Positions 4,648 to 14,226 of a stretch of DNA of 64,000 nucleotides are shown here, one piece after another (within the stretch, counting starts at the first letter, position 1; every line of letters begins with the position of its first letter). A program made the position numbers and the translations under genes. Source of the DNA: Gammaproteobacteria bacterium (GTDB taxonomy: Bacteria; Pseudomonadota; Gammaproteobacteria; Pseudomonadales; Pseudohongiellaceae); assembly GCA_017853205.1 (NCBI GenBank), contig JAFMKB010000004.1, forward strand, positions 21,580-85,579, read 5' to 3'. The notes under the pieces are model-generated. The model was given only the letters and a program-made list of their open reading frames with translations, searched no databases and was not told the origin of the DNA.

Positions 4648-4821
4648 ATGCGCGGCGTCAAGAAACAGGATCTTCCTCAGAAAACGTGTCCCGTCTGCGA
4701 GCTGCCTTTTGCGTGGCGGAAAAAATGGGAGAAAAACTGGAACGAGGTTAAATACTGCTCGGAAAGATGTCGACGATCGGCGAAGGTCAGCCAAGCCCCA
4801 GCTTCCCCCGAACAGCGCTAA
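4648..4821 (+). CDS. DUF2256 domain-containing small protein (57 aa, not in ORF track)
   Basis: Hand translation [57 protein letters not shown]; CPxC...W+KKW...[10 protein letters not shown] signature. Confidence 0.85.
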
Positions 4822-6511
4822 AGGCCTCAAACTGACTCAGATAAACCTCGCCGCTAAGATGCTCGAAGAAATCGGTGCGGTTGAGCATGTCCATCACGGG
4901 TCCCTTCACCTCCGACAGGTTCAGTGTAATTCCCTGCTGTTTTAAACGCAGGTTGATCGCCTCTAGTGTCTCTAATGCCGTGTAGTCAATCTCATTTATC
5001 GCCGTACACATAAGTATTACGTGTGCGATGTCGCCGTTATCGAACGCAGCAGAATAAATGCGTTCCTCAAGATAAGAGGCGTTGGCAAAGAAGAGGCTTT
5101 CGTCGACTCTAAGAGTAAGAATCTGTGGGTAGCATTCGACCTGATAACGGCGCACATTGCGGAAATGCTCGGTGCCCTCGATAAGTCCCACTTCGGCTAT
5201 ATGAGGTTTGGAGGTGCGATAGAGGTGTAGACCAATCGATACCAATATGCCGCAGGAAACACCGGCTTCGACGCCGAACCCCAAGGTAATAAACATCGTG
5301 ACCAACACAGCTGCCGTATCTCCCTTGGAGACGCGCCAGGTCTTTTTGATAACCGAGAAATCGACGAGGGCAATAACCGCTACAATAATCGTGGCGGCGA
5401 GGGTAGCTTTAGGTAGGCTGTAAAGTAATGGCGTTAGGAATAGAGAGACTACGCCGATAAATGCCGCGGTCATTAGACTTGCAGCCTGCGTGACAGCGCC
5501 GGCGTCGAAGTTAACAACCGAGCGTGAAAAGCCGCCGGTTACTGGAAGTCCGCCCGAAAAAGCCGAGGCGACGTTTGCGGCGCCGAGCCCAATGAGTTCT
5601 TGATCCGCATCGATCCGCTCTTGCCGCTTGCCACCTAAAGTGCGACCGACCGATACCGATTCTACGTAACCGATAATCGAAATAAGAAGCGCAGGCAACC
5701 ACAGCGCCTCAATGAGTGCGATTGAGAAATCAGGTAAAGCGAGCATTGGTAAACCAGTAGGAATAGCACCGACTACCGCAACGCCATTAGCATCAAGTCC
5801 TAGGGATGAAACCGCAACTATCGTCGCAATGACTGCTAGCACAGGTGCGACCTTGGTCAGCAGCTGCGCGCGGAAACGACTGACGCCGAGCTTTGTAAGA
5901 AACGAAACGCCGCTTCTCTTCACAAGCATCAAAAAGACAATTACGCCCACGCCTATCCAAAGGGTCGAAAAATTAAGCTGTGGGATATGTATCCAAATTG
6001 AGTGGAGAAGTTCACCGATCGTATCTCCGCCAGCCTGGATGCCGAAAATATGGCGCAGCTGACTGAGCGCGATAATGATAGCCGACGCAGTTATAAACGC
6101 CGACACGACGGTGTGCGAAAGAAAGTTGGCAAGAAACCCGAGTCTCAATAAACCAAATACGGCGAGCATGCCTCCGGACAGTGCTGCAAGAGTAATGGCA
6201 GCAGCAGTTGCGCTGACGCCATCACTCGCTGAAACCTCACCGACAGCAGCCGCCGTCATGAGCGAGGCGATTGCCACCGGTCCTACCGACAGTGTGCTAC
6301 TGCTACCAAAAAGCGCGTACACAGCGAGTGGAAGAATACTGGCGTAGAGGCCGACTTCCGCAGGCAGTCCAGCTAACAGCGCATAGGCTAAGGATTGCGG
6401 TATTAGCATAATTGTCACAATGATCGCAGCGATCAGGTCACTGCTAAAAGTCTGTCCATCGTAACCGCGTATCCAGCGCAGCGCCGGCAGTAATTTATCG
6501 CTCCTTCGCAT
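4787..6511 (-). CDS. SulP family inorganic anion transporter with STAS domain
   Basis: [26 protein letters not shown] and [27 protein letters not shown] SulP motifs; C-terminal STAS. Confidence 0.92.
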
Positions 6512-6581: not shown

Positions 6582-8291
6582 CTAACTTCTTAGCGACTTC
6601 AGCTTCTTGGGTGCTGCGAGCCACTCGCGACCCTTCAACATCGCATGCCAATAGATCGCGGGGAGCATGTCCTTTTTAAGAATCCACGCTGCCCACGTTG
6701 GGCGAGTGCCATTAAGTAAAAATGACGGAAATGAAGGAAGAAGCTTGCCACCATAGCCAAACTCCGCGAGCACAATCTTACCGCGTTCGACCGTAAGTGG
6801 GCACGAACCGTAGCCATCGTATCCTGCCTGGAGATCTCGACCGTTAATAGAGCTAATGATGTTAGCAGCCACAACCGGCACCTGCTTGCGCACAGCAGCC
6901 ATGGTTTTGGCATTGGGGGTGTTCATTACGTCGCCTAATCCCCAAACATTCGCAAATTTCTTATGTTGCAGACTGAATTGATCGACGTCGAGCCAGCCAC
7001 CGGCATCGGCAAGTACGCTGTTAGCAACAAAATCCGGCGCTTTCTGTGGTGGGCACACGTGAATCATATCGAACTCTTCGCAGATTACGTCATTCTCTTT
7101 CCCTTCCTCAGACGATTTAAAATAGGCGCGCTTATTTTCGCCGTCGACTTCGACAAGAGTATGATTGAAATGAGTCTTGGCATGGTATTTCTCAATATAT
7201 TTCTGCAGCGCTGGAACGTACGCTGCGACACCGAAAAGAACTCCGCCAGCATTGAAGAAATCGATGTTGATATCTTTTAGCGCACCGGTGCGACGCCAAT
7301 GGTCGCCGGAAAGATATAACGCTTTCTGAGGAGCGCCCGCGCATTTGATCGGCATCGGTGGTTGGGTAAAGATTGCGCGCCCTTTCTTAAGTCCTTTTAC
7401 AAGTTCCCAAGTGTAGGCTGAATATTCATAGGAATAGTTGGACGTGACGCCGTTCTTACCGAGACTCTCTTTGAGCCCTTTGATGCCATCCCAGTTAAGC
7501 ACAAGCCCGGGAGCGACGATAAGGTGCTGATAATGAAGCGACTGCTCGTTATCTAACTGAACCGTATTTTCGGTCGGTGTAAAGCCGACGGCAGCTTGTT
7601 TGATCCATGAGACGTTGCTAGGAATCAGGTCGCGCATGTTGCGCTTTGTTTGCGTGTTGTTGAACACGCCTCCGCCTACCATTGTCCACCCAGGCTGATA
7701 GTAATGTGACTCGGCTGGATCTACCAAGGCGATACGTAAATCGCCTTTACGTTTGAGTAGGCTCGCTGCTGCAGCGATCCCTCCCGATCCTGCGCCAACT
7801 ATTACCACGTCGAACGAAGGTTTTGCTGCACCCTCGTTCTGTGTAGAAGCAGCGGCGATTTCTTTGTCTGCGACATAGGGTTTGACTGCGTCGGTAACAT
7901 CGAATCCGACTTCCTTCGCCTTTTCGAGTACCTCCTGAGCGCCGGCGCCTCGACTAACCGCTGCGGCTGACCAAAGGCAAACCGTTCGATTACCGGTTCG
8001 GCAGTAGGCGTGAATTTTCTCGGCTTTCGCTTGGGCCTGCTCGAGTAAGTCAGCGAAAGTCTGAACCTGCGCATCTGTCTGTTCGCCTGACTTGAAAGGC
8101 AGATTAACGACCGCAATCCCTAGCGCGTCAGCAGCAGCCGAAATAGCGTCAAATGTCACTTGGTCTTGCGACTCGCCATCGGGACGATTGCAAACGAGTG
8201 TTGTTACGCCATTGGCTTTCAGTTCGGCAAGATCATCTATTTCAACTTGAGCCGAAACTGTGAGTGTGTCGTTTAGCGTCATGATGCGCAT
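6582..8291 (-). CDS. DUF442 (PTP/rhodanese-like, TIGR01244-type) domain fused to sulfide:quinone oxidoreductase-like FAD protein
   Basis: N-terminal HAYCRTGNRTVCLW Cys loop; C-terminal DVVIVGAGSGGIAAAASLLKR, KCAGAPQKALYL and SCPLTVERGKIVLAEFGYGG SQR motifs. Confidence 0.9.
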   Translation of the reverse strand: MRIMTLNDTLTVSAQVEIDDLAELKANGVTTLVCNRPDGESQDQVTFDAISAAADALGIAVVNLPFKSGEQTDAQVQTFADLLEQAQAKAEKIHAYCRTGNRTVCLWSAAAVSRGAGAQEVLEKAKEVGFDVTDAVKPYVADKEIAAASTQNEGAAKPSFDVVIVGAGSGGIAAAASLLKRKGDLRIALVDPAESHYYQPGWTMVGGGVFNNTQTKRNMRDLIPSNVSWIKQAAVGFTPTENTVQLDNEQSLHYQHLIVAPGLVLNWDGIKGLKESLGKNGVTSNYSYEYSAYTWELVKGLKKGRAIFTQPPMPIKCAGAPQKALYLSGDHWRRTGALKDINIDFFNAGGVLFGVAAYVPALQKYIEKYHAKTHFNHTLVEVDGENKRAYFKSSEEGKENDVICEEFDMIHVCPPQKAPDFVANSVLADAGGWLDVDQFSLQHKKFANVWGLGDVMNTPNAKTMAAVRKQVPVVAANIISSINGRDLQAGYDGYGSCPLTVERGKIVLAEFGYGGKLLPSFPSFLLNGTRPTWAAWILKKDMLPAIYWHAMLKGREWLAAPKKLKSLRS

Positions 8292-8381: not shown

Positions 8382-9272
8382 CTATTTGAATGCATTTATT
8401 GGCACTTTGAGATAGACGAGCCCATTGTCCTCGGCTGCAGGAAATTCACCAGCGCGAACGTTGACCTGTAGCGACGGCAGGATTAAATGCGGCATGGCGA
8501 GTGTTTTATCTCGCGCGGTACGCATTTTCACAAATTCATCTTCGCTTATAGATTGGTTGACATGGATATTTCGCTCGCGTTCCTCAGCGATGGTTGTTTC
8601 ATACTCGAGCTCGCGGTCATTTGGGCCATAGTCGTGGCACATAAACACACGGGTCTCACCAGGGAGCTGAAGCAATTTGTGAATTGAGCGGTAAAGTGTA
8701 GCAGCATCGCCCCCAGGGAAGTCGGCACGCGCAGTTCCGGCGTCCGGCATAAATAGCGTATCGCCTACGAATAGCGCATCACCGATTAGATGCGACATAC
8801 ACGCAGGTGTGTGTCCAGGGGTATGCATAACATGCCCTTCGAGATTTCCGATTTTATAAGTTTCCCCGTCAGTGAAGAGGTGATCGAACTGCGAGCCATC
8901 GTGAGCAAGTTCGTTATCGATGTTATAGATACCGCCGAAAACTTTTTGCACTGTCTTTATTTGTTCGCCAATAGCGAGCTTTCCACCGATCTTATCGCAT
9001 ATGTAATGGCCTGCAGAAATATGATCGGCATGCGCATGCGTTTCGATTATCCATTCAATCCTTAGCTCGTTGTCGCGGATAAACTTTATCATCGCATCCG
9101 CGCCTTCATGGCTAATGCCGCCTGACGCGTAATCCAAGCCGAGCACGCTATCGATTATTGCGCACGCGGCAGAGCTAGGATCTTTGACGACATAAGAGAA
9201 TGTATTGCTCTCGGCATCAAAGAATGGCGTGACGACTGGAATCAAAGTGCTGTTATCGATCGCTGCGTTCAT
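8382..9272 (-). CDS. Persulfide dioxygenase-like MBL-fold hydrolase (ETHE1/Blh type)
   Basis: IETHAHADHISAG, HTPGHTPACMSHLIGDALFVGDTLF, CHDYGPNDRE; start taken at MNAAIDN. Confidence 0.9.
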   Translation of the reverse strand: MNAAIDNSTLIPVVTPFFDAESNTFSYVVKDPSSAACAIIDSVLGLDYASGGISHEGADAMIKFIRDNELRIEWIIETHAHADHISAGHYICDKIGGKLAIGEQIKTVQKVFGGIYNIDNELAHDGSQFDHLFTDGETYKIGNLEGHVMHTPGHTPACMSHLIGDALFVGDTLFMPDAGTARADFPGGDAATLYRSIHKLLQLPGETRVFMCHDYGPNDRELEYETTIAEERERNIHVNQSISEDEFVKMRTARDKTLAMPHLILPSLQVNVRAGEFPAAEDNGLVYLKVPINAFK

Positions 9273-9336: not shown

Positions 9337-10329
9337 TTATTCGTAGCTCAATGGCCGTGATTTTCCGTAGAAAATTTTATAAATAAATGCTGTGTAGATC
9401 AGAATCATGGGAACTGCGATTGCCGTTCCTATGAGGGCAAATTCGAGTGATGCGGTGGAGGCAGCGCTCTCCCAAATATCAAGTTTTCCGATGACGATAT
9501 CTGGGAAGATGCTATAAGCGAGTCCTAATGCCATCATCAGACACATCACTACCATGCACACGAAAACAATCCAGCCATAACCGGCTCTTAAGATCTCTTC
9601 CTTAGACAATACCCATAGCGCAGTGATATAGGCAACGCCTGTCATTAGTGGGATAGGGAGTAAGCCGATTGCTGCGGGCAAAGTGAACCACTTCGCCGCA
9701 ATCGTGCTACTTGCAATGGGTGTAGCAATTGAAATTAGAAATAGACCGATGCCCATCGGCAAAATGGCTGTGCGCGCCCATTTGGCAGCTTTCGTGTAGA
9801 TCTCACCAGAACTTTTAATGAATAACCATCCGCACCCGAGAACGACATAGAAGGCTGGAAGTGAGAAAGAAATTGCTATCGAGAATGCGATGCTAGTGAA
9901 ACTGCTTTCGAGTCCCATAACATAAGTGCCGAGCATCCAACCCTGCGCCATGGCTGCTAGAAGTGAACCTATGAAGAACAGATTGTTCCATAGGCGTTTG
10001 TACTCTGCTGTGACCTTCACGCGGAAATCGAATGCTACACCTCGCAAGATCAAGCCAAATAACATGAGCGTAACTGGGATATAAAGGTGTGTCAGGATCA
10101 TGCCGTGCGCGCTAGGGAAGGCTATGAGCAAAATACCTATGCCAAGCACTATCCAAGTCTCGTTTGCGTCCCAGAAAGGCCCGATGGTTTCAATCATGCG
10201 GTCTTTCTCATCGTCAGTTGCAAGCGGGAGCAAGATTCCAATTCCGAGATCGTAGCCGTCTAGAATAATATAGAGCAGTAGGGCTAGCCCCATTAGGCTT
10301 ACAAAAATTAGCGGTAGCCAATACTCCAT
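9337..10329 (-). CDS. cydB: Cytochrome bd ubiquinol oxidase subunit II
   Basis: DGYDLGIGILLPL and GPFWDANETWIVLGIGILLIAFP motifs; 1-nt overlap with cydA stop (TAATG). Confidence 0.96.
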   Translation of the reverse strand: MEYWLPLIFVSLMGLALLLYIILDGYDLGIGILLPLATDDEKDRMIETIGPFWDANETWIVLGIGILLIAFPSAHGMILTHLYIPVTLMLFGLILRGVAFDFRVKVTAEYKRLWNNLFFIGSLLAAMAQGWMLGTYVMGLESSFTSIAFSIAISFSLPAFYVVLGCGWLFIKSSGEIYTKAAKWARTAILPMGIGLFLISIATPIASSTIAAKWFTLPAAIGLLPIPLMTGVAYITALWVLSKEEILRAGYGWIVFVCMVVMCLMMALGLAYSIFPDIVIGKLDIWESAASTASLEFALIGTAIAVPMILIYTAFIYKIFYGKSRPLSYE

Positions 10330-11702
10330 TATAGCGCTCCTAGGGTGACTGCTGATCCAGGCGTACCTATGCTAGGCGCTGCGAAATCCATGCTTTCTTT
10401 TAGCGAGCGTGCCGGCTTAGAAGACATGTGCATAAGCGTGAGGATGTAGAATAGAAGTAGGAATGCATACAGCAGCAGGTATCCGATTAAGGTGCTGAGC
10501 ACCATGCCGCCTGCGTGGTCGGCAACAACTTCGCTCGCGCGGATATAACCTTGTACAACCCAAGGCTGACGACCTATTTCGGTAACATACCAGCCTGCGA
10601 GGCTTGCGACCCATCCGGCGAATGTCATCCAGCTAAGCGTGCGCAGTAACCAAGGGCCGACCTTGTCGCGAAAGAGCGCATAGCTGCCCCACCAGGCGAC
10701 TGCGAGCATCAGGAAGCCCATGCCGACCATTACGCGGAAGCTCCAGAAAAGAGGAGCAACCGGTGGGTGTGCCTCTTCGAATTCATTCAATCCCTTAAGT
10801 TCGCCGTCGGCATGATGCGTCAGGATGATGCTCGCGAGCTTCGGTACTTCAACTGCAAAATGCGTTGTGCGTGTTTCTTCATCCGGAAATCCGAACAGGG
10901 TAAGGGGTGCGCCTTTTTCTGTCTCCCAGATGCCCTCGACTGCGGCGATTTTGGCAGGCTGGTTCTCCAGAGCAACAAGCCCATGTAAGTCGCCTACAAA
11001 AATCTGAATAGGAGCGACGATTGCCGCAAGCACGACGCCTGTGCGAATTACCTTCCAAGTGGCGGGTCCATCAACGTTCTTGCGGGCACGCCATGCACTA
11101 ATGCCGGCGACAAAGAAGGCCGAGGTAAGAAGAGATGCGGTAACCGTGTGTATAAATCGATACTTGAACGAAGGATTAAATATTATTTCCATCCAGTCGT
11201 CGACCATGAACACGCCATTTTCTATCGTGAAACCTGCAGGCGTATGCATCCACGAGTTGAGGCTGAGGATCCAGAAGGCTGAGGTTGTGGTGCCAATCGC
11301 AACGAGGAAAGACGAGATTAGGTGTACGCGGTTAGACACAAGGTTTTTTCCGTAAAGCATAATGCCAAGGAAAGAGGCTTCCAGGAAAAAAGCAGTAAGT
11401 ACCTCGTAGCCGAGTAGAGGGCCTGCGATATTTCCGACACGCTCCATGAAACCTGGCCAGTTGGTGCCAAACTGAAAACTCATGGTGATGCCAGAAACTA
11501 CGCCTAATGCGAAGGTGAGCGCAAAAACTTTTACCCAAAAGAAATAAGCGTATTCCCAGTCTTTGTCACCGGTGAGCGTGTAGCGTAGGCGAAAAAAAAC
11601 AAGAAGCCAGCACAGTCCGATTGAGATGCTAGGAAACAAAATATGGAAACTGATATTGGCGGCAAACTGAATGCGCGAAAGAAGGAAGGGATCGAGTTCC
11701 AT
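10329..11702 (-). CDS. cydA: Cytochrome bd ubiquinol oxidase subunit I (short, CIO-like)
   Basis: LSRIQFAANISFHILFPS and TEIGRQPWVVQGYIR motifs; SD GGAGACACTACCAATG places start at 11702. Confidence 0.95.
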   Translation of the reverse strand: MELDPFLLSRIQFAANISFHILFPSISIGLCWLLVFFRLRYTLTGDKDWEYAYFFWVKVFALTFALGVVSGITMSFQFGTNWPGFMERVGNIAGPLLGYEVLTAFFLEASFLGIMLYGKNLVSNRVHLISSFLVAIGTTTSAFWILSLNSWMHTPAGFTIENGVFMVDDWMEIIFNPSFKYRFIHTVTASLLTSAFFVAGISAWRARKNVDGPATWKVIRTGVVLAAIVAPIQIFVGDLHGLVALENQPAKIAAVEGIWETEKGAPLTLFGFPDEETRTTHFAVEVPKLASIILTHHADGELKGLNEFEEAHPPVAPLFWSFRVMVGMGFLMLAVAWWGSYALFRDKVGPWLLRTLSWMTFAGWVASLAGWYVTEIGRQPWVVQGYIRASEVVADHAGGMVLSTLIGYLLLYAFLLLFYILTLMHMSSKPARSLKESMDFAAPSIGTPGSAVTLGAL

Positions 11703-11749
11703 TGGTAGTGTCTCCGAGAGGCGTGTGGTCTTCTGGTCAAAGATGCTGG

Positions 11750-11839
11750 TTAGAGCAGGTAGGTCCAAATAGCCCAACAGACGAGTGCAGTGGTCGGCGC
11801 TACGAACATCATGAGGACCATATTTTTAATGTGTATCAT
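11750..11839 (-). CDS. 29-aa single-TM micro-ORF preceding cydA (candidate bd oxidase small subunit)
   Basis: AAGGAGACACTCCGATG Shine-Dalgarno; translation MIHIKNMVLMMFVAPTTALVCWAIWTYLL*; absent from ORF track because of size. Confidence 0.65.
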   Translation of the reverse strand: MIHIKNMVLMMFVAPTTALVCWAIWTYLL

Positions 11840-11920
11840 CGGAGTGTCTCCTTGCTAGCGTGAACGGCGACGGGGTAAGCGCCTGTCGCCAAGCAATAAA
11901 TTAAGTCTTGTACTGAAGGT

Positions 11921-11938
11921 TTGCAGTACTCGTGCCAA
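11921..11938 (-). promoter_or_regulatory. Sigma54 (-24/-12) promoter for the cyd-sulfide operon
   Basis: Minus strand TTGGCACGAGTACTGCAA against consensus TGGCACG-N4-TTGC; one mismatch (CTGC). Confidence 0.75.
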
Positions 11939-12043
11939 CTTCTTGATAACTTCCTAACCTATTGTTTTTTATGAAGTAAAATTATAGGAGCGCGGATTTT
12001 GTGCGTGTTTCAACAAGCGAGGTGATAATAATATGGAGATAGC

Positions 12044-12057
12044 TGCCAGAAATGGCT
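12044..12057. promoter_or_regulatory. Candidate enhancer/UAS half-palindrome
   Basis: TGCCAGAAATGGCT, resembles the perfect palindrome 39 bp away. Confidence 0.4.
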
Positions 12058-12082
12058 ACAATCCAGCCAGTTTTGTCAAAAA

Positions 12083-12096
12083 TGCCAAATTTGGCA
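12083..12096. promoter_or_regulatory. Candidate activator-binding palindrome
   Basis: Perfect 14-bp palindrome TGCCAAATTTGGCA, 16 bp before the fisR-like start. Confidence 0.55.
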
Positions 12097-12112
12097 GTAA
12101 GTAGGGTCATCC

Positions 12113-13522
12113 ATGCAGCTAATCGCCAGTAACAAGGCGCGTGATCTTGGCGCGATGCTCGAAGGCTATGAATGCCCTGCCATTCTAGTCTCTGCAGACT
12201 ACGAAATACTGGCGACCAATCAACAGTACCTCGACGCGTTCGGCGAGATCGAGTTCGATAAGACGCCGCGTTGCTTCGAAGTCTCACACGGTTATTCCAA
12301 GCCCTGCGATCAGTCTGGGGAGGACTGCCCGCTTGGTGCTGCGGTGGCGTCGGGGCATAAAGAGCGAGTGTTGCACATTCACCAGACACCTCGCGGTCGG
12401 GAACATGTCGATGTCGAGATGCTGCCGATTCACAACGCCGAGGGTGATCTTGCCTATTTTGTCGAGCTTTTGCGGCCCGTTCCGCTTGCTAGCGGCGAGG
12501 TGTCGACTCAGGAGCTTGTCGGATCGAGCCCACCTTTTGAGAAGATGTTGGAAAAGATCGCACGTGTTGGTGCAACCGATGCGTCCGTTTTGCTGCTAGG
12601 TGAATCAGGCACGGGCAAGGAACTTGCCGCTCGAGCGATTCATCTGGCGAGCAAGCGTAGCACAAAACCGATGGTCACCCTCGAGTGCGCTGGGCTCTCG
12701 GATTCGCTGTTTGAGAGCGAGCTTTTTGGCCATGTGAAGGGTGCGTTTACCGGGGCGCTGAGCAACAAGAAAGGCCTGGTCGAGCTTGCCCACGGAGGTA
12801 CGCTGTTTCTCGATGAGTTGGGGGATATTCCTCTTGGTATGCAGGTTAAGTTGCTGCGATTACTCGAGACAGGAACTTTCCGCCCGGTTGGTAGTGGCGA
12901 GGTAAAAACCTCGAATTTCCGATTAATCTGCGCAACGCATAAAAACCTCTTGGCGATGGTGAATGCAGGTGAGTTTAGGAACGACTTATTTTATCGAATC
13001 AACGTGTTCCCGATCGCTATACCGTCACTTGGCGAACGCCTAGACGACCTTCCTGCCTTGAGTAAGGCGATACTCTCGCGATTCGCAGGAGGCGATAAAT
13101 ATCATCTGACCCACTCCGCAATTCGGACGCTTGCCGCCTATCGATTTCGCGGTAACATTCGAGAATTGAGGAATTTGCTCTATCGCGCGATTGTGTTAGC
13201 TGACACTAATGTTATCGACAGCCGCGTCATCGAGCTGTGTTTCGAAGAGGATAATCTCATCGATGCGTCTAAAGGTGATCAGCCAATGTACAATGATTCG
13301 GCACAGAGCGATCCGGCGGTAGCGAAGGCGCCCACGGCGGGGTTGCTCGACGCACTCATTCCAAATAAGAAAGAAACGCAGTGGCCGTCGCTCAAAGAAA
13401 TCGAGCGGCGTTATATTGAGGCCATGCTCGCCGCACAGGATGGTGACAAGGCAGCGGTTGCTGCTGCGTTAGGTGTCAGCGAGCGCTCTCTGTACAGGAA
13501 GCTCAGCGGCAAAAATAATTAG
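12113..13522 (+). CDS. fisR: Sigma54-dependent transcriptional activator, FisR-like (sensor + AAA+ + Fis HTH)
   Basis: LLLGESGTGKELAARAIH, GAFTGA, C-terminal Fis HTH; N-terminal RCFEVSHGYSKPCDQSGEDCPL cysteine motif (C54, C65, C72). Confidence 0.85.
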   Translation: MQLIASNKARDLGAMLEGYECPAILVSADYEILATNQQYLDAFGEIEFDKTPRCFEVSHGYSKPCDQSGEDCPLGAAVASGHKERVLHIHQTPRGREHVDVEMLPIHNAEGDLAYFVELLRPVPLASGEVSTQELVGSSPPFEKMLEKIARVGATDASVLLLGESGTGKELAARAIHLASKRSTKPMVTLECAGLSDSLFESELFGHVKGAFTGALSNKKGLVELAHGGTLFLDELGDIPLGMQVKLLRLLETGTFRPVGSGEVKTSNFRLICATHKNLLAMVNAGEFRNDLFYRINVFPIAIPSLGERLDDLPALSKAILSRFAGGDKYHLTHSAIRTLAAYRFRGNIRELRNLLYRAIVLADTNVIDSRVIELCFEEDNLIDASKGDQPMYNDSAQSDPAVAKAPTAGLLDALIPNKKETQWPSLKEIERRYIEAMLAAQDGDKAAVAAALGVSERSLYRKLSGKNN

Positions 13523-14004: not shown

Positions 14005-14226
14005 ATGCGCGCTATTTTGGTGCGCTGACGCTCGCGAGGTGAGCCTAGTGGTGCGCGAATATCAGAGTGCCATTTTTCATGATGGGTAGAACAGAGCGGC
14101 GTTACTGGCCGAGTCGAGCCCCAAACAGCAAAAAATAACCTACTTAGGGGGAAAAAGCAGAGAAATAGAAATATTTTTGCCTGGATGGTGAACTTGGTAC
14201 GGCTGTTGCATCGTTATAGCCACATA

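Follow-up and report, generated by a model that had tools for sequence, protein, structure and literature searches.

The closest described systems are the FisR-controlled sulfide-oxidation operons. In the FisR of Cupriavidus, a tetrasulfide is formed by Cys53-Cys64 (PMC9495516). In Acinetobacter baumannii, pdo-sqr is under FisR control and cydAB is induced by sulfide, and the FisR of that species functions without these cysteines (PMC7315123). In E. coli, cytochrome bd sustains respiration that is resistant to sulfide (PMC4815019). Literature text searches, mostly outside subscription papers, returned no description of a FisR-cydAB-pdo-sqr operon.

Such an operon is present in the window, the 64,000-nucleotide stretch of DNA analysed here, which comes from a 2.54-Mb draft genome in 109 contigs whose relatives are OM182-type gammaproteobacterial MAGs. 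The control region studied is the DNA separating fisR from the divergent cytochrome bd operon. FisR orthologues were gathered from relatives and from the class, and the DNA upstream of each fisR was inspected. It is highly probable that this region controls a FisR regulon and that, on sensing sulfane sulfur, it switches on a microprotein, CydAB, PDO, SQR and SulP from position 11911. Most likely, sulfide detoxification and a sulfide-resistant oxidase are thereby switched on together.

The Regulator

The regulator gene (12113–13522, plus strand) encodes a sigma54 activator with a PAS-like domain, an AAA+ domain containing GAFTGA, and a Fis-type HTH, as matched by the PAS_4, Sigma54_activat and HTH_8 models. 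Three cysteines, C54, C65 and C72, lie within the motif CY.VSH.....PCD..GE.CPL and are invariant in 51 of 51 homologues. The C54–C65 spacing equals that of Cys53 and Cys64 in the Cupriavidus protein, whose third such cysteine is Cys71. These domains and cysteines bear out the preliminary description of the gene as fisR-like, and on their strength we identify the regulator as FisR. In many relatives, fisR is divergent from pdo-sqr-sulP with a matching promoter; in the clade of the window, cydAB intervenes between that promoter and pdo. By analogy with Cupriavidus, the signal for this FisR would be sulfane sulfur.

It might be argued that the regulator is NorR-like and senses another signal, nitric oxide or cyanide, both of which bd oxidases also resist. 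The divergent layout with three sites, described below, does resemble norR-norVW (PMC2941729, PMC1274295), and bd oxidases help against nitric oxide and cyanide (PMC11837568). However, the protein scores 289 bits against the NorR model, whose cut-off is 476, and it has a PAS-like domain (PAS_4) where NorR has GAF, which is absent, so that NorR identity is rejected. Together with the invariance of the FisR cysteines and the presence of pdo and sqr in the operon, this makes a nitric oxide or cyanide sensor very unlikely.

The Sigma54 Promoter

RpoN, which a sigma54 promoter requires, is encoded in the genome. The minus-strand sequence TTGGCACGAGTACTGCAA, reported earlier at 11921–11938, is found there, and within it the −24/−12 element TTGGCACGAGTACTGCA (11922–11938, minus strand) has its GG and GC spaced by 12 bases, with flanks that fit the consensus. 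Position 11923 holds the C of the −12 GC, and a start 12 nt away places the predicted +1 at 11911 on the minus strand, in agreement with the start proposed previously. A pattern search of the 2.5-Mb genome with TTGGCACG-N5-TGCW gave one exact match, which is this promoter; within one mismatch there were 31 matches, and 11 when the pattern was read backwards. Within the 270-bp spacer, shuffling gives a P of about 0.0003 for the best sigma54 match. A plain consensus scan covering all 64 kb at up to two mismatches does not reach significance on its own; the case for the promoter rests on its position and conservation. A minus-strand −24/−12 element recurs at the matching place and in the matching orientation upstream of fisR in many FisR loci. 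In the alignment of close relatives, islands of conservation mark the promoter sequence TGCAGT...TGCCAACT as well as the half-sites of the upstream activating sequences (UASs). This comparative evidence strongly supports the original proposal of a sigma54 promoter with enhancer sites for a bacterial enhancer-binding protein, and we consider the element to be a real promoter.

A second sigma54-like promoter, TTGGTACGGCTGTTGCA, lies at 14194–14210 on the plus strand and is followed by a conserved stretch of ~126 nt ending in a Rho-independent terminator. This stretch has a strong fold (z −5.6), matches no Rfam family over threshold, and was detected in five genomes from the window's subclade (plus L040) and in no others. 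The segment 14194–14346 is a candidate sigma54-driven small RNA.

The Upstream Sites

The candidate site consensus is TGnCA-N4-TGnCA, and the cluster at 12044–12096 is the densest in the 64 kb. With at most one mismatch, the 174-bp interval between promoter and fisR contains four sites against 0.07 expected (P ≤ 0.0002, shuffles). Only two exact sites occur in the 64 kb, both inside this interval. Genome-wide, the exact form TGCCA-N4-TGGCA is present five times, here and at four other places.

The preliminary description had proposed a pair of sites here. Both are where it placed them, at 12044–12057 and 12083–12096, its spacings are all correct, and the second is indeed a perfect palindrome 16 bp before the fisR ATG (12113). 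What did not hold is the number, as there are three non-overlapping sites and an overlapping one. UAS1, TGCCAGAAATGGCT (12044–12057), lies 139.5 bp upstream of the predicted +1. UAS2, AGCCAGTTTTGTCA (12065–12078), missing from the preliminary description, has one mismatch, is degenerate in L040 and lies 21 bp from UAS1, so that UAS1 and UAS2 are 140 and 161 bp upstream of +1. UAS3, TGCCAAATTTGGCA (12083–12096), is the perfect palindrome, a clade-specific third site 18 bp beyond UAS2. The remaining site, TGTCAAAAATGCCA (12074–12087), also new, is an exact match overlapping both UAS2 and UAS3, an arrangement that allows alternative registers of predicted binding. Across 12065–12096, TGnCA half-sites follow one another every 9 bp, four in all; L039 and L041 share this tiling, and L040 has it partly.

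Paired TGnCA-N4-TGnCA sites recur at the matching place in relatives whose FisR is ~50 to 96% identical. The spacing of the pair is 20–22 bp within the order and mostly 30–33 bp in more distant families, corresponding to two or three helical turns. For this reason, the 39-bp pair 12044/12083 is less likely to be functional than 12044/12065, whose 21 bp make two helical turns as in the relatives; the latter is the canonical pair across relatives. Given that canonical pair and the larger overlapping array, the perfect palindrome is probably an auxiliary site. The distance from promoter to UAS1 in the genus takes values of ~120, 131 and 140 bp, which are steps of one helical turn; the Rayleigh test gives R 0.84 and p 3e-7 when loci are treated as independent, although they are phylogenetically related. 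In families beyond the genus, no significant phasing is seen (R 0.28, p 0.17). When the genome itself was searched with the paired-site pattern for further FisR targets, no hit was obtained with zero mismatches allowed.

Two terminator-like sites were flagged in the array, which could suggest that the palindromes are intrinsic terminators, or else a chance resemblance. Their stems are only five pairs long, however, and the TGnCA bases of the half-sites are retained in relatives while the inner four bases drift; moreover, the counts are far above those in shuffles. The terminator reading was rejected on these grounds, and either explanation is extremely improbable.

A single sigma70 promoter candidate for fisR, a weak one (12034–12062, plus strand), was found, and it overlaps UAS1. 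It is near chance level and not significant across loci, and a general −10 box between the paired sites, present at 7 of 36 loci, is not significant either (P 0.09). As proposed in the preliminary description, fisR may be autoregulated through the UASs and, since the sigma70-like promoter overlaps them, such regulation would be self-repression. This raises the question of whether the palindromes are no more than operators through which fisR represses itself, or are sites of a different regulator, with cydAB transcribed from an unseen oxygen-controlled sigma70 promoter and the −24/−12 element a relic of an ancestral pdo promoter. The strongest palindrome is the one nearest the fisR ATG, which, like the overlap with UAS1, would suit this idea. 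Against it, the −24/−12 element and the sites are conserved jointly and with phased spacing, and no minus-strand sigma70-like promoter ahead of cydA was found in 11700–12300. We regard the idea as unlikely.

The Operon and the Probable Recruitment of cydAB

The promoter was earlier placed between a fisR-like gene and the cyd operon. The cydAB genes are indeed downstream, but the first ORF is that of a microprotein, and the operon extends to pdo-sqr-sulP. All of its genes are on the minus strand, in the order microprotein-cydAB-pdo-sqr-sulP, and from the gene spacing they are assumed to form one transcript. The genome has no gene for subunit I of a bd oxidase other than cydA (10329–11702, ATG at 11702), which, with cydB (9337–10329), specifies its single bd oxidase, alongside one haem-copper oxidase. 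Next is pdo (8382–9272, ATG start chosen by inspection), for a persulfide dioxygenase of metallo-beta-lactamase fold. It is followed by sqr (6582–8291), for a sulfide:quinone oxidoreductase whose nearest solved structure is mitochondrial SQR, and by a gene for a SulP-family anion transporter (4787–6511). The SQR is fused at its N-terminus to a TIGR01244/BLH phosphatase-like sulfurtransferase domain; against L061 and L068, this SQR gives a tblastn match split in two near the domain junction.

In relatives, a promoter of this type serves pdo without cydAB, from which we conclude that cydAB was probably added to a known sulfide-oxidation regulon. In the window's clade, cydAB is at the operon head, next after the microprotein ORF; in L064, from a different family, it directly follows the promoter without that ORF; and in L044 and L046, it is at the 3′ end of the operon. 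We take these varied positions to reflect repeated recruitment. More distant FisR-like genes adjoin other cydA types, such as that with cydP in Pseudoalteromonas xiamenensis (L094), where a FisR-like activator is divergent from cydP-cydAB-cydX-ybgE and the stretch shown has no pdo or sqr. This arrangement suggests FisR-like control of a bd oxidase alone in other lineages.

The Microprotein

The first ORF of the operon (11750–11839, minus strand) is preceded by the Shine–Dalgarno sequence AAGGAG and encodes a 29-residue microprotein with a single transmembrane (TM) segment, MIHIKNMVLMMFVAPTTALVCWAIWTYLL. When close relatives are compared, differences are much more frequent at synonymous than at non-synonymous positions (for example, pS 0.48 and pN 0.05 for the window versus L040), and we therefore judge the ORF to be real and under purifying selection. 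The genus has 14 loci whose FisR operon begins with the microprotein. It precedes cydA in the window, L039, L040, L041 and L043, and pdo, with no cydAB between, in L042, L044, L055, L058, L060, L061 and L068. In L056 it is followed by a RidA-like gene, and in L045 (3736–7742) a FisR-type sigma54 promoter and the microprotein are followed by a Yip1-domain protein and the cbb3 oxidase genes ccoNOP, which replace cydAB and pdo. In G051, fisR is elsewhere, yet the microprotein precedes pdo-sqr (L106).

No Pfam or NCBIfam model matches the microprotein, so family models do not place it with CydX or CydP, and it is found in FisR loci with pdo, ccoNOP or RidA genes and no adjacent cydAB. A dedicated bd subunit as its sole role is ruled out by this occurrence without cydAB. 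As a guess, it is a small respiratory or SQR partner. It is tempting to propose, though we do so only tentatively, that the constant first product of the clade's FisR response is an undescribed family of ~29-residue single-TM proteins (MIxIKNMxxLMxxPxxTAxxCWAIW) that has a role in the response to sulfide itself, such as partnering SQR or the co-induced terminal oxidase, with terminal oxidases (cydAB, once cbb3) recruited behind such promoters more than once.

A second family of related single-TM peptides, of 26–29 residues, is encoded in L106 and L109–L120, often syntenic and in many genus members, between a ~181-residue protein and a ~400-residue putative lipoprotein; it is not found in the window's genome.

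Proposed Mechanism

We propose that FisR dimers would occupy the TGnCA-N4-TGnCA sites beside their own gene. Sulfane sulfur would modify the N-terminal C54, C65 and C72, leading to assembly of the FisR ATPase ring, which would loop over ~140–160 bp to sigma54-RNA polymerase at 11922–11938. Transcription would then proceed leftward from about 11911, a single predicted transcript encoding the microprotein, CydAB, PDO, SQR and the SulP transporter. One signal would thus elicit both sulfide oxidation and a sulfide-resistant oxidase accepting SQR's electrons from quinol, while the same sites would self-repress fisR.

The wiring is testable: one persulfide sensor would control sulfide oxidation together with an oxidase able to respire in sulfide, a coupling known to date from A. 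baumannii, where the two responses are encoded at separate locations (PMC7315123). The predicted FisR recognition motif and its geometry, TGnCA-N4-TGnCA sites two or three turns apart, can be used to find targets elsewhere, and the analysis exposes a microprotein family missed by annotation.

Comparison with Known Systems

The locus resembles the FisR/pdo-sqr sigma54 regulon that Li et al. 2017 (as cited by PMC9495516) described in Cupriavidus pinatubonensis JMP134, with which it shares the cysteine spacing, a sigma54 activator and promoter, and sulfide-oxidation targets. The window differs in having cydAB and the microprotein gene between promoter and pdo, an sqr fused to a TIGR01244 domain, and an added sulP. 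The A. baumannii FisR operon (PMC7315123) likewise has a divergent fisR, a predicted sigma54 promoter, a pdo-sqr operon and a sulfide response, but there cydAB, though induced by sulfide, lies at a locus of its own, and the FisR does not have these cysteines. The E. coli NorR/norVW system also has a divergent enhancer-binding protein and, upstream of its sigma54 promoter, enhancer sites in tandem; in contrast, NorR is a GAF sensor of nitric oxide that uses GT-N7-AC sites and has other targets. Like the bd small subunits CydP and CydX (PMC9104464, PMC11742914), the microprotein is a tiny single-TM protein encoded beside cydA, and CydP also precedes cydA and, in P. xiamenensis, is encoded with the cyd genes on one side and a FisR-like gene on the other; however, no family model recognises the peptide of the window, which is also found in FisR operons lacking cydAB. 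Relative to the known FisR regulon, then, what is new in this reading of the genomes is the corrected anatomy of the sites, their helical phasing, the recruited oxidase and the unlisted microprotein.
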